Source: a virus
Direction: 5' to 3' (one strand)
Virus record (IMG/VR): IMGVR_UViG_3300037011_000620
Coordinates: 1-25,737 of that record
Length of the DNA stretch: 25,737 nucleotides
The position numbers and the translations under genes are program-made. The notes beneath the pieces were generated by a model that saw nothing but the letters and a program-made list of their open reading frames with translations, was not told where the DNA came from and ran no database searches. Of this stretch, positions 10,723 to 22,759 are shown piece by piece. Each line of letters starts with the position of its first letter. Positions within the stretch are counted from its first letter, which is position 1.

Positions 10723-10785
10723 ATGACCCAGTATTTTACGAGCCTGGGACTCCACTCGGGCAGGGATTAGCCTCTGCCATTTCTG

Positions 10786-10917
10786 TTAGGCGTTCTTGGC
10801 TCGTCTTTGACGACCGCCCTTCACACCCCTCTTCTTGCCTCGACGTTTACGGTTAGGGTTGGAACCCATTTCACCGTAATCCTTGGCATTCCTATCTCGA
10901 TGAGGATAGTAACCCAT
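10786..10917 (-). CDS. Very basic 43-residue protein
   Basis: ATG 10917 follows AGGAGG at 6 nt, a strong site. The peptide begins MGYYPHRDRNAKDYGEMGSN and ends with an Arg/Lys-rich tail (NRKRRGKKRGVKGGRQRR), resembling small nucleic-acid-binding or ribosomal-protein-like tails. Function unknown; RNA or DNA binding is inferred from charge only. Between this gene and tRNA-Ala(GGC), 10723-10785 contains two small hairpins (CCCAG/CTGGG and GGCAG/CTGCC) and no gene. Confidence 0.68.
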   Translation of the reverse strand: MGYYPHRDRNAKDYGEMGSNPNRKRRGKKRGVKGGRQRRAKNA

Positions 10918-10942
10918 GACAAGCCTCCTATGTGCATTCGCA

Positions 10943-10957
10943 CTAGATACTTGACAT
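10943..10957 (-). CDS. Possible minigene (ATG, three codons, stop) with a strong ribosome site
   Basis: AAGGAGG is followed after 9 nt by ATG TCA AGT ATC TAG. The same stop also closes a 22-codon frame from ATG 11011, whose site (AAGGGAG) directly abuts its ATG. Either is speculative; a leader peptide for the downstream basic protein is possible. Confidence 0.25.
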   Translation of the reverse strand: MSSI

Positions 10958-10984
10958 GTTTACTTCCTCCTTGAGTTTAAAATT

Positions 10985-11045
10985 ATTCTGTGCCGGACCT
11001 CTGCCAGGCATCTCCCTTTCGGGTGTCTTCTTAGACGAACAGAAT
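10985..11045 (-). other. Cloverleaf-like 61-nt element
   Basis: ATTCTGT/ACAGAAT closes a domain containing GTCT-AAGA-AGAC, CCC-GAAA-GGG and a bulged GCC(T)GG/CCGGC stem with a 7-nt loop. Arm order mimics a tRNA but loops are too small for an anticodon. It could be a decayed tRNA or a structured leader between tRNA-Ala(UGC) and the basic-protein gene. Confidence 0.35.
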
Positions 11046-11047
11046 TT

Positions 11048-13282: not shown

Positions 13283-13357
13283 TGGTACCCTCGGCAGGAG
13301 TTAAACCCGCACTTTCACGTTCGAAGCGTGATGTGATCTTCGTTTCACTACGAGGGT
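13283..13357 (-). tRNA. tRNA-Arg(UCG), encoded CCA, A19-U56 elbow
   Basis: Acceptor ACCCTCG/CGAGGGT, anticodon arm TCACG-CTTCGAA-CGTGA, T-arm GCGGG-TTTAACT-CCTGC, A73 plus CCA. The T-loop has U56 instead of C, and the D-loop (AACGAAGA) has A19 instead of G, a compensatory change. The 3' end of the SPASM gene overlaps it by 10 nt. Confidence 0.87.
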
Positions 13358-14094
13358 ATATTTGCTATTTCTTTTAAAGCCTTTTGTAATATTTTAGGAT
13401 CAAAATCAGCAACTCCCCATTTAGCATTGCAATGGAGACATGTTGGGTGGGCCTTGTCGGTCATTTTCTCACCACAAATCTGTTGTGCATATTCCCATCT
13501 TTTAGCATCAAGCTCTTTGATGCTCATGTCAAAGAGATTTCCAATTTTTACTTCATTCTTCCAATCGTGACAGCAAATGTAAACCTCACCATCATTGGCG
13601 ATTAAAAGATTGTCGAACATGATCGTACAGGGCTTATGGTCGAGGTCGCCATAATGAATCAATCTGTTATCTAATTCCTGCCCACCAATCTTTACAAGCG
13701 GATTATGAAAATGAGCAGCCAGCTCTTCATACGGTCTTTTCAAATAATTACTAACCATCGTCTGATTAAACAATTTCATTCGTTTGTCTTTAATCAGAAT
13801 TGTGCCATTTGTCCACAAGAAAAATCTGACCTGAGGTATCTGATTCTTGATCTCAACCATCAAGGGCAGCATTCTCTTCCAATACAACATCGGTTCATTG
13901 TAGAAATGCCAAGAAATGAAGCCCGTAAAACCCAGTTCAAAATAAGCTTCTCTACTTGCCTTGATGATCATCTCATCGGTAATTGCTGTATAGCCTCGTT
14001 CCATATGCGTGATTGGACAGAGGTCTTTATGCTGCTCTTCAAAATTGCAGCGCTTGCCAATCTCGAATGTTAAAAGCTGAGTAGCGTGTAGCAT
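13348..14094 (-). CDS. SPASM-type radical-SAM-like protein with altered cysteine motif (248 aa)
   Basis: The N-terminus has FEIGKRCNFEEQHKDLCP (Cys16 and Cys26) where radical SAM proteins have CxxxCxxC. A TIM-barrel-like middle follows (FISWHFYNEPMLYW, RFFLWTNGT). The C-terminus is SPASM-like: KPCTIMFDN, VYICCHDW, KIGNL, and CLHCNAKWG (cysteines about 157-224). The C-x9-C arrangement may bind a different cluster or be inactive. Substrate unknown; this class often modifies peptides. The start overlaps the upstream stop (TAATG). The TAG stop is inside tRNA-Arg(UCG). Confidence 0.75.
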   Translation of the reverse strand: MLHATQLLTFEIGKRCNFEEQHKDLCPITHMERGYTAITDEMIIKASREAYFELGFTGFISWHFYNEPMLYWKRMLPLMVEIKNQIPQVRFFLWTNGTILIKDKRMKLFNQTMVSNYLKRPYEELAAHFHNPLVKIGGQELDNRLIHYGDLDHKPCTIMFDNLLIANDGEVYICCHDWKNEVKIGNLFDMSIKELDAKRWEYAQQICGEKMTDKAHPTCLHCNAKWGVADFDPKILQKALKEIANIPS

Positions 14095-15157: not shown

Positions 15158-15228
15158 TAGGTCCTGAAGGTTCTGCCCCTTCGTAAACGGTTTAAAAGAC
15201 CGCTATTCTACTATTGAATTAAGGACCC
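15158..15228 (-). tRNA. tRNA-Lys(UUU) with non-canonical T-loop
   Basis: Acceptor GGGTCCT/AGGACCT, anticodon arm GCGGT-CTTTTAA-ACCGT, T-stem GAAGG/CCTTC with loop GGCAGAA. D-loop AATAGTA has A18. A73. The 94 nt between it and tRNA-Tyr (15229-15322) hold no gene that I can identify. Confidence 0.77.
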
Positions 15229-15322
15229 ATTTGGTGACGCAGCCGGTTAATTCCAGTGACCGCGAGCGTTGTCCGCCCCGTCTTTTAACCCTCCCTTTTC
15301 AGATCGGATTATCCACGCCGTG

Positions 15323-15495: not shown

Positions 15496-15499
15496 ATGT

Positions 15500-15798
15500 A
15501 AATGCGAAGCAGCGCTTTTGGATGCGCTGGACCAGCTCGAGGAATAGGTTATTCCGGCAAACCACTCCAAACGGCCGCGAACCGTTTTTCGTCGTGGTTA
15601 GAGGCTTTTACCTCTAAGTGGCCGCCTTCTCCTCATTAGATGGGAGCTACCGACCATCACCGCGCTTGGATGAGTTAGAGCCAAGGTTGACCTCATCCGC
15701 CACACCGTTACCGTTTCCCTCATGCTAGGAGCTACTTCTTGACTCCCTAAGTACCCATTGAGACTGAAGGATGTCTCACACTCTGGCACTCCGCATTT
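15500..15798 (-). ncRNA. 299-nt structured RNA between two tRNA-Glu genes
   Basis: The two ends pair as AAATGCGGAG/CTTCGCATTT (15789-15798 with 15500-15509), 10 bp with one G-U on the minus strand that would be A-C on the plus strand, which supports minus-strand transcription. Seven internal hairpins are visible: 15759-15778, 15668-15698, 15639-15658, 15598-15617, 15569-15587, 15541-15555 and 15510-15529. It ends 4 nt from tRNA-Glu(CUC) and 1 nt from tRNA-Glu(UUC), so tRNA processing would release it. A 77-codon frame at 15598-15831 overlaps the tRNA and has no ribosome site. It may be one RNA with 15874-16384. Confidence 0.6.
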
Positions 15799-15873: not shown

Positions 15874-16384
15874 ATTCGCCCGATTTTGATGCCGAGATCG
15901 GGAAACTCGTCTTGCCTATTTACTTCAACCGATGATGAACCTACTAACGCTCTAACCACAGTTAAACTAAAGAGGTTTTTATCTCGAGAAATAACCTTTT
16001 CGCCGCAATGGGCTACTCAGGAGGCTTACCTCAAACCTTTAGCCTCTACACAGACAATAAAGCCGGTTTTCAATTTGGCTCCGGCAACCAAGGTGAATCA
16101 AAATCCCGTTTTAAGGTTAAACGGGCAAACCGTATTGGGGCCTCTTTTATTTTGAGTTTCTTATCCCCACGAATATTGGGCACTGGCGAGGTGATCAGCC
16201 TCTGTGGCCTATGCGCATTAGCCACCACCTACTATGCACTACCATAAAAGGTGTCAAAACCAGCCACTGTACGAAGGTTTTCGCCCCAGAAACCTGGGTC
16301 ACAGGAAACCAGCAACCTTTAATAATCAGGAGGTTTGATAGACCTTTTATTAACGGCACCCTGCTCATGTGCCTTCCTGACTAT
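15874..16384 (-). ncRNA. About 510-nt ornate non-coding RNA with its own promoter
   Basis: There is no minus-strand frame of useful length. The region is full of local stems: 16326-16333 with 16372-16380; 16189-16193 and 16204-16208 with 16221-16230; CCCGTTT/AAACGGG (16105-16125); GAGGCT/AGCCTC (16021-16046); CCCGAT/ATCGGG (15879-15902). A TGTACA promoter ends 7 nt before its expected 5' end at about 16384. Length, a promoter of its own, phage origin and neighbouring tRNAs recall GOLLD and ROOL RNAs, which are reported next to tRNAs in phages. I cannot see a family signature, so the class is open. Confidence 0.6.
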
Positions 16385-16390
16385 AGTTCT

Positions 16391-16419
16391 ATAATACTAC
16401 ATTCTACGGCGTTTGTACA
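16391..16419 (-). promoter_or_regulatory. Promoter for the large ncRNA and downstream tRNAs
   Basis: Minus strand TAACGA-TGTACA (16414-16419), 17-bp spacer, TATTAT (16391-16396). It directly follows the stop of the HNH gene and faces only non-coding RNA. Confidence 0.65.
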
Positions 16420-16422
16420 TCG

Positions 16423-21366: not shown

Positions 21367-21395
21367 ATTATACCCTATTGTGTGGTGATTGTACA
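21367..21395 (-). promoter_or_regulatory. Promoter for the DNA ligase gene
   Basis: Minus strand TGTACA (21390-21395), 17-bp spacer, perfect TATAAT (21367-21372). Confidence 0.68.
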
Positions 21396-21862: not shown

Positions 21863-22759
21863 TTAAGCGTTGGCGTGGTGGGCTAAATACCCTATTCCAG
21901 ACTTTATACATACGGGACAAGCTGAGTGTTTCTTTCTCAACTCTTTCAAATTATCAAAATCAACTTCTCTAATATTACCGATAACATAATCGGGTGTATA
22001 CCTATCAGTGGCACAACACTGAACGACGTTGCTATATTCGTCTAAAACCAGTATGTCATACTGTGGGCAAACCCAATCGAGAGGCTGTCTCTTTTTAGTT
22101 TCTTCAAATACTCTGGGTATAAAATCATTGAGCTCTGGAAGAAGGTGTCCCTTTAACAATGGCATGGCAAGACCTGTAAGATGTGCCACGATGGGCTCAA
22201 ACCAAATTCCGAGTTTATCACAAAAGGCTCTTGCCGCCTCTATTTCAGGTCCGTTATGACTATACAGTTGAAAAACAAGAACAAATTTCACATTAGGCGT
22301 GAACCACTTAATAGATTCAACCATCATTTTAATATTATTGCAGATTGTATTGAAATCAAATCCATGTTGTTTGTCGTAACTAAGCTGGCTGAAACCAGGC
22401 ATAGAGAACTTAAGTTCCATCAAATTCGATAAAGCAAATTTGGGTATTTCCTTGGGCGTAGACGCATTTGTACTCAGCGAATACATAAAGCCTAAATCGG
22501 ACACGACCCGCATCATATCTTCAAACTGTGGATGTAAAAATGGTTCGCCCCAGCTATAAAGGCCAACATGCGTATTTCTAGAAATTATTCCCTTTTGACC
22601 AAGAAAAAGTAGACCGTCGTGAAAGTCTTTCGGTGATAGAAATCCTGCTTGACTCTTGTGAATATTTCCCAAAAGATTTCTGCTACCACTTGAGCAATAT
22701 TTACAAGCAGCATTACATACGCCAGAAATATCCCAATACAAAGTATGATAAGGATTCAT
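21863..22759 (-). CDS. Radical SAM/SPASM enzyme (298 aa)
   Basis: The radical SAM motif CNAACKYC (Cys15, Cys19, Cys22) binds the [4Fe-4S] cluster that cleaves S-adenosylmethionine. The barrel includes GLYSWGEPFLHP and SLSTNAS. C-terminal cysteines (DWVCPQYD, VVQCCATDR, SACPVCIKSG) indicate a SPASM-type auxiliary-cluster domain. Members modify peptides or other small substrates; the target is unknown. The ATG directly follows the TAA of the upstream gene. The window holds a second, atypical member at 13348-14094. Confidence 0.87.
   Translation of the reverse strand: MNPYHTLYWDISGVCNAACKYCSSGSRNLLGNIHKSQAGFLSPKDFHDGLLFLGQKGIISRNTHVGLYSWGEPFLHPQFEDMMRVVSDLGFMYSLSTNASTPKEIPKFALSNLMELKFSMPGFSQLSYDKQHGFDFNTICNNIKMMVESIKWFTPNVKFVLVFQLYSHNGPEIEAARAFCDKLGIWFEPIVAHLTGLAMPLLKGHLLPELNDFIPRVFEETKKRQPLDWVCPQYDILVLDEYSNVVQCCATDRYTPDYVIGNIREVDFDNLKELRKKHSACPVCIKSGIGYLAHHANA

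Follow-up and report, generated by a model that had tools for sequence, protein, structure and literature searches.

A promoter-headed non-coding block and further candidate structured RNAs in the tRNA array of an uncultivated bacterial virus

About 510 nucleotides in the tRNA array of an uncultivated bacterial virus (block 1; 15874–16384, minus strand) lie between a promoter and a tRNA gene. What does this DNA specify? It could be a large RNA acting on its own, a leader serving the tRNA transcript, a small gene or a spacer. The first-pass annotation favored a single large ornate non-coding RNA reminiscent of GOLLD and ROOL.

The tRNA array, its relatives and the promoter

The window, i.e., the whole stretch of 25,737 nucleotides analyzed, is a 25.7-kb virus record. 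Its tRNA genes number about 35 (29 called by ARAGORN, plus Rfam-only calls); all lie on the minus strand, interspersed with small genes and homing endonucleases. Genes for a SPASM-domain protein (13348–14094, minus strand) and a radical-SAM protein (21863–22759, minus strand) lie in or near the array. Block 1 is flanked upstream by an HNH gene (16959–16423, minus strand), encoding a 178-aa McrA-like protein in which Pfam finds HNH domains only (88 and 81% identity in the relatives), and downstream by tRNA-Glu(ttc) (15873–15799, minus strand), whose RNase P site would free the block.

A scan with the HNH protein revealed G001, its near-duplicate G002 and G003, so that the comparison rests on two independent relatives, G001 (loci L001 and L039) and G003 (locus L003). 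Relatives found by terminase consisted mostly of short fragments that lack the RNAs of blocks 1 and 2. Scans with the ligase, the HNH protein and two neighbor proteins returned the same phages, together with L040, which has no tRNAs within the piece fetched, and the fragment L051, from which module A and block 2 are absent. The HNH protein scan found none in bacterial genomes. One further candidate relative, L009, was rejected as a chance exact match within a coding gene.

The order tRNA-His, HNH, block, tRNA-Glu(ttc), spacer, tRNA-Glu(ctc), tRNA-Tyr is retained in the relatives; the window has an extra 263-aa gene between tRNA-His and HNH, and G003 retains just about 170 nt before tRNA-Glu(ttc). 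The window and G003 have 100% identical tRNA-Glu(ttc) genes, from which that of G001, although the phage is otherwise similar to the window, is quite different, a pattern which points to mosaic exchange of single tRNA genes in the array. The spacers directly before tRNA-Lys(ttt) in L037 (13545–13628) and L051 (3590–3668) look homologous by eye: both show a stem closing a CUCGAG loop, and a GGGAGG..CCUCC part that resembles tRNA.

The promoter (16391–16419, minus strand) consists of a −35 element TGTACA (16419–16414), a 17-nt spacer and a −10 element TATTAT (16396–16391), with a predicted +1 at about 16384. Its counterparts, TGTACA-17-TATAGT in G001 and TTTACA-17-TATAGT in G003, stand a few bases past the same HNH gene; the same place and spacer in both relatives were reproduced in a fraction of 0.00075 of shuffles. 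The class TGTACA-17-TATwwT occurs 16 times in the window and relatives versus 0.25 expected. A looser class (TGTACA/TTTACA-17-TATAAT) gives 23 sites in the three phages versus 2.3 expected, a list in which, on two occasions, two entries represent a single place covered by overlapping pieces of one record; these sites have TGTACAATC...TRTGR-TATAAT in common. Minus-strand sites of the phage-wide form TGTACAATC-N-TRTGR-TATAAT lie in the window at 21395, 19298, 16419, 12301, 6348 and 1236, and the form also occurs in the relatives. The promoter proposed at first pass is thus borne out as more than a chance match and, judged by this recurrence, is probably a genuine phage promoter. Most other promoters of the class have a ribosome site and a start codon within about 30 nt downstream; that of block 1 instead precedes a hairpin beginning at the predicted +1 (window and G001).

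Block 1 as a chain of modules

The interval 15874–16422 (549 nt) is the window's longest stretch free of both tRNAs and minus-strand ORFs of at least 60 aa, as had been claimed for the block, a result that depends on the cut-off, since at 80 aa the interval 2078–2662 is longer. The accompanying statement that block 1 holds no minus-strand frame was inexact because frames of 57 aa (ATG, 16368–16195) and 52 aa exist; neither is conserved in the relatives. Could the longer one encode a small protein or leader peptide? Promoter, AGGA (six bases upstream) and ATG stand in order, and a gene does follow most other promoters of this class. However, its G001 counterpart stops after five codons (MLDGR-stop), the head of the G003 locus has merely a different 5-codon frame, and the aligned block shows stops and single-base indels in every frame, so that the search for a conserved protein frame in homologues gave none. 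A coding function is very improbable.

The "many stable hairpins" described earlier are, by energy, no more than chance would give: against dinucleotide shuffles the minus-strand folding energy of block 1 has z −0.77, with 19 of 100 shuffles equally good (plus strand, z −2.16), and the whole-block alifold z is just −1.6. Both ends are conserved in G001, which shares 79% identity with the 3′ part; the middle is highly diverged with large indels, and its unaided structure-aware alignment did not beat shuffles. The shuffle-like energy, the diverged middle and the mosaic recombination within the array are what would be expected of an evolving spacer that gathers hairpins and old tRNA-like pieces, with selection on modules A and B only or on nothing. 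Against this reading stand the conserved promoter and the elements described below, namely the compensated stems of modules A and B, a mid-block hairpin with an unchanged loop and a rewritten stem, and 40 identical nucleotides; on balance it is decidedly doubtful.

In the window and G001, module A (16322–16384, minus strand), the 5′ 63 nt, begins at the predicted +1. It comprises a 10-bp closing stem AUAGUCAGGA/UCCUGAUUAU, an inner stem and a conserved GUUAAUAA, and over three phages it reaches an alifold column-shuffle z of −6.0, with 2 doubly compensated pairs and 97.6% pairing. Its covariance model (CM R2) matches both relatives at E ~1e-17, once per phage, and detects no other sense-strand copy. 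In G003, modules A and C lie between the two tRNA-Glu genes and not at the head of the locus, where a different hairpin follows the promoter; module A therefore does not depend on a promoter-proximal place. Module C (16274–16319, minus strand), defined by hand alignment, has a stem AAGGUU/AACCUU around a hairpin CCCAG/CUGGG, with counterparts CUACC/GGUGG around CCCUG/CAGGG in L001 and GGCAG/CUGCC in L003. Its conservation is suggestive only, coming from hand-aligned sequences in a middle whose unaided alignment is not significant.

The mid-block hairpin (16188–16202, minus strand) reads GAGG-CUGAUCA-CCUC in the window and CGGU-CUGAUCA-ACCG in L039, the 7-nt loop being identical and the stem rewritten; a common loop of at least 7 nt on a 4-bp stem was seen in 0.1% of shuffle pairs. 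Module B (15972–16039, minus strand) has an outer stem, an inner stem, an invariant CCUGAGUAG..CGAAAAGG and an internal loop AGUA/GAA, which we take to resemble a bulged-G (sarcin-ricin) motif. Across the three phages its outer stem is GAGG/CCUC, AGGG/CCCU and CCGG/CCGG, with three pair types at both variable positions (GC/AU/CG and AU/GC/CG), a combination seen in no other of the 1770 possible stems. We considered reading CUGAGUAG..CGAAA in this module as a hammerhead ribozyme but rejected this, as the core is unlike CUGANGA and the partner strand of stem I was not found. The 40-nt segment (15932–15971, minus strand) is identical in the window and G001 and could form a hairpin, and a 3′ hairpin (15879–15902, minus strand) pairs CCCGAU...AUCGGG, with GCCAG...CUGGC in G001. 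Palindromic apical (kissing) loops were not enriched when tested.

Comparative folding, which had been proposed as a check, thus yielded compensation in the stems of modules A and B and a middle no better than shuffles; the statistics rest on two independent relatives and fall short of R-scape grade. From these alignments, block 1 is best described as a series of modules, poorly conserved in the middle. The relatives support a structured non-coding RNA behind its own promoter beside tRNA genes; the single large ornate fold of the first-pass annotation is not demonstrable.

Block 2 and other RNAs of the array

Block 2 (15496–15798, minus strand), a structured RNA of about 300 nt, lies between the two tRNA-Glu genes, beyond the interval annotated at first pass, and is the better-supported ornate RNA. 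Between the window and G001, 18 of its pairs are doubly compensated, 8 singly changed and none broken, and its folding z is −8.1 (alifold column shuffle) versus −1.5 to +1.5 for coding controls. It was located in the window and G001 only, and was not found in G003 or the other records searched. In G001 (L001) a 219-aa frame intervenes between tRNA-Glu(ttc) and block 2, the fold of which is retained; blocks 1 and 2 are therefore separable.

Block 3 (15229–15321, minus strand), between tRNA-Tyr and an Rfam-only tRNA (15158–15228), is a small structured RNA with z −5.3 over three phages. A tRNA-like structure (10983–11047, minus strand) has acceptor, D and T arms without an anticodon loop, CCC-GAAA-GGG taking the place of the anticodon arm, and an unusual T loop, CAGAGRU. 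Counterparts occur at L039:17050–17120, L037:15789–15861 and L051:7411–7484, with a weaker one at L039:17476–17557. Of its 18 pairs, 6 are doubly compensated, 100% being paired, and its model found a match in a fourth phage (E 4e-17); Rfam and the phage records gave no match, nor did bacterial genomes when searched by a narrow pattern. The small basic frame (MGYYPHRDRNAKDYGEMGSNPNRKRRGKKRG...) downstream of this structure (10723–10982, minus strand) is conserved in G001.

Blocks 1, 2 and 3 together with the anticodon-less tRNA-like RNA could form a set of functional RNAs that the enzymes of tRNA processing excise from the array and that work jointly, perhaps as tRNA mimics or as complexes made of RNA only. 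We regard this broader proposal as unlikely, if still worth stating.

Known families and the possible release and role of the RNAs

The window and a relative were searched by cmscan with all 4227 Rfam families, at the gathering cut-off and then with permissive filters and the E limit relaxed to 10. At the cut-off nothing but tRNAs was found; the relaxed search gave sub-threshold chance matches, none of them to GOLLD, ROOL, HEARO or OLE, four of the families named for checking, and block 2 likewise has no Rfam match. HEARO goes with an HNH endonuclease gene, for which the gene to compare here is the adjacent one for the 178-aa McrA-like protein. Block 1 is therefore not a detectable member of these four families, and the suggested GOLLD or ROOL identity receives no backing. 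BLAST of blocks 1 and 2 against 50,697 phage records returned just the embedded tRNA-Glu and one chance match.

The context drawn from GOLLD and ROOL did prove apt, as both are large, structured RNAs of phages and lie near tRNA islands (PMC12286853); block 1 has comparable size and phage origin, and lies near tRNAs, as GOLLD does in phages or prophages, and beside a phage tRNA island, as ROOL does. GOLLD has a conserved 3′ region and a less conserved 5′ region, sometimes with a tRNA in the linker (PMC12286853). In contrast, block 1 consists of short modules in series and block 2 has only 300 nt, neither with a covariance-model match. GOLLD forms a closed RNA nanocage and ROOL an ordered homo-oligomeric one. 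A divergent GOLLD or ROOL RNA, to which size, phage and tRNA neighborhood would be suited, is scarcely credible, since searches relaxed to E 10 gave no Rfam match to either family in the window or the relative.

Block 1 is also non-coding and situated in a phage tRNA region, like other tRNA-island RNAs. The long non-coding RNAs lnc001 and lnc002 of phage K adjoin tRNA genes, and lnc001 has its own early promoter (PMC9241854); they were observed by RNA-seq, whereas blocks 1 and 2 are read from DNA and have no sequence match in annotated phages. RNAC and RNAD of T4 are non-tRNA RNAs transcribed from the phage tRNA region, without known role (PMC3014915); unlike block 1 they are small, and homology to the blocks was examined by BLAST of phage records. 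The non-coding RNA of about 800 nt of ICP1 is large, abundant, phage-borne and without a protein frame (PMC7567579), but that phage has no tRNAs, and similarity to the blocks was not seen among phage records.

We favor, at about even confidence, the reading of block 1 as the 5′ segment of the tRNA-operon transcript, freed at tRNA-Glu and working as a structured phage RNA. Transcription would begin at the dedicated phage promoter, with block 1 as the untranslated 5′ segment, and would continue through tRNA-Glu, block 2, tRNA-Glu, tRNA-Tyr and further tRNAs. RNase P cleavage at the 5′ end of tRNA-Glu would free an RNA of about 510 nt; block 2 would be released by RNase P cleavage at tRNA-Glu(ctc) together with 3′ processing of tRNA-Glu(ttc). 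The freed RNAs might accumulate and work in trans as a scaffold, decoy or RNA complex, like other tRNA-island RNAs; this trans role is the least certain step. The promoter, the non-coding state, modules A and B, the mid-block hairpin and the block 2 fold are supported by comparison. The conserved promoter, module A at +1, the module B stem, the hairpin with rewritten stem and the block 2 fold were counted for a structured RNA; the whole-block energy, the unaided test of the middle, the short G003 version and the number of independent relatives (two) were counted against it.

The main rival to a freed trans-acting RNA is a cis-acting leader, the modules of which would serve their own transcript only, whether by stabilizing its 5′ end, acting in tRNA processing or allowing antitermination across the long untranslated array of tRNAs. 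Block 1 does run from +1 to the first tRNA, its middle is dispensable, the short G003 version keeps a +1 hairpin and module B immediately before tRNA-Glu(ttc), and a CUCUUUA string in the window is boxA-like. However, this string is retained in neither G001 nor G003, and module A stands in G003 among tRNA genes, away from the promoter, which argues for self-standing modules. A purely cis-acting role is a tentative but serious possibility.

The general kind, a non-coding RNA in a phage tRNA region, is already known, and the families of blocks 1 and 2 are new to Rfam. Large RNAs beside phage tRNA islands are recurrent and reported as abundant in phage K, without known function. The array adds new families with covarying folds outside Rfam, a defined class of phage promoter and, in G003, a naturally short version, which make it testable in any cultivated member whether the RNA is free or serves as a cis leader.
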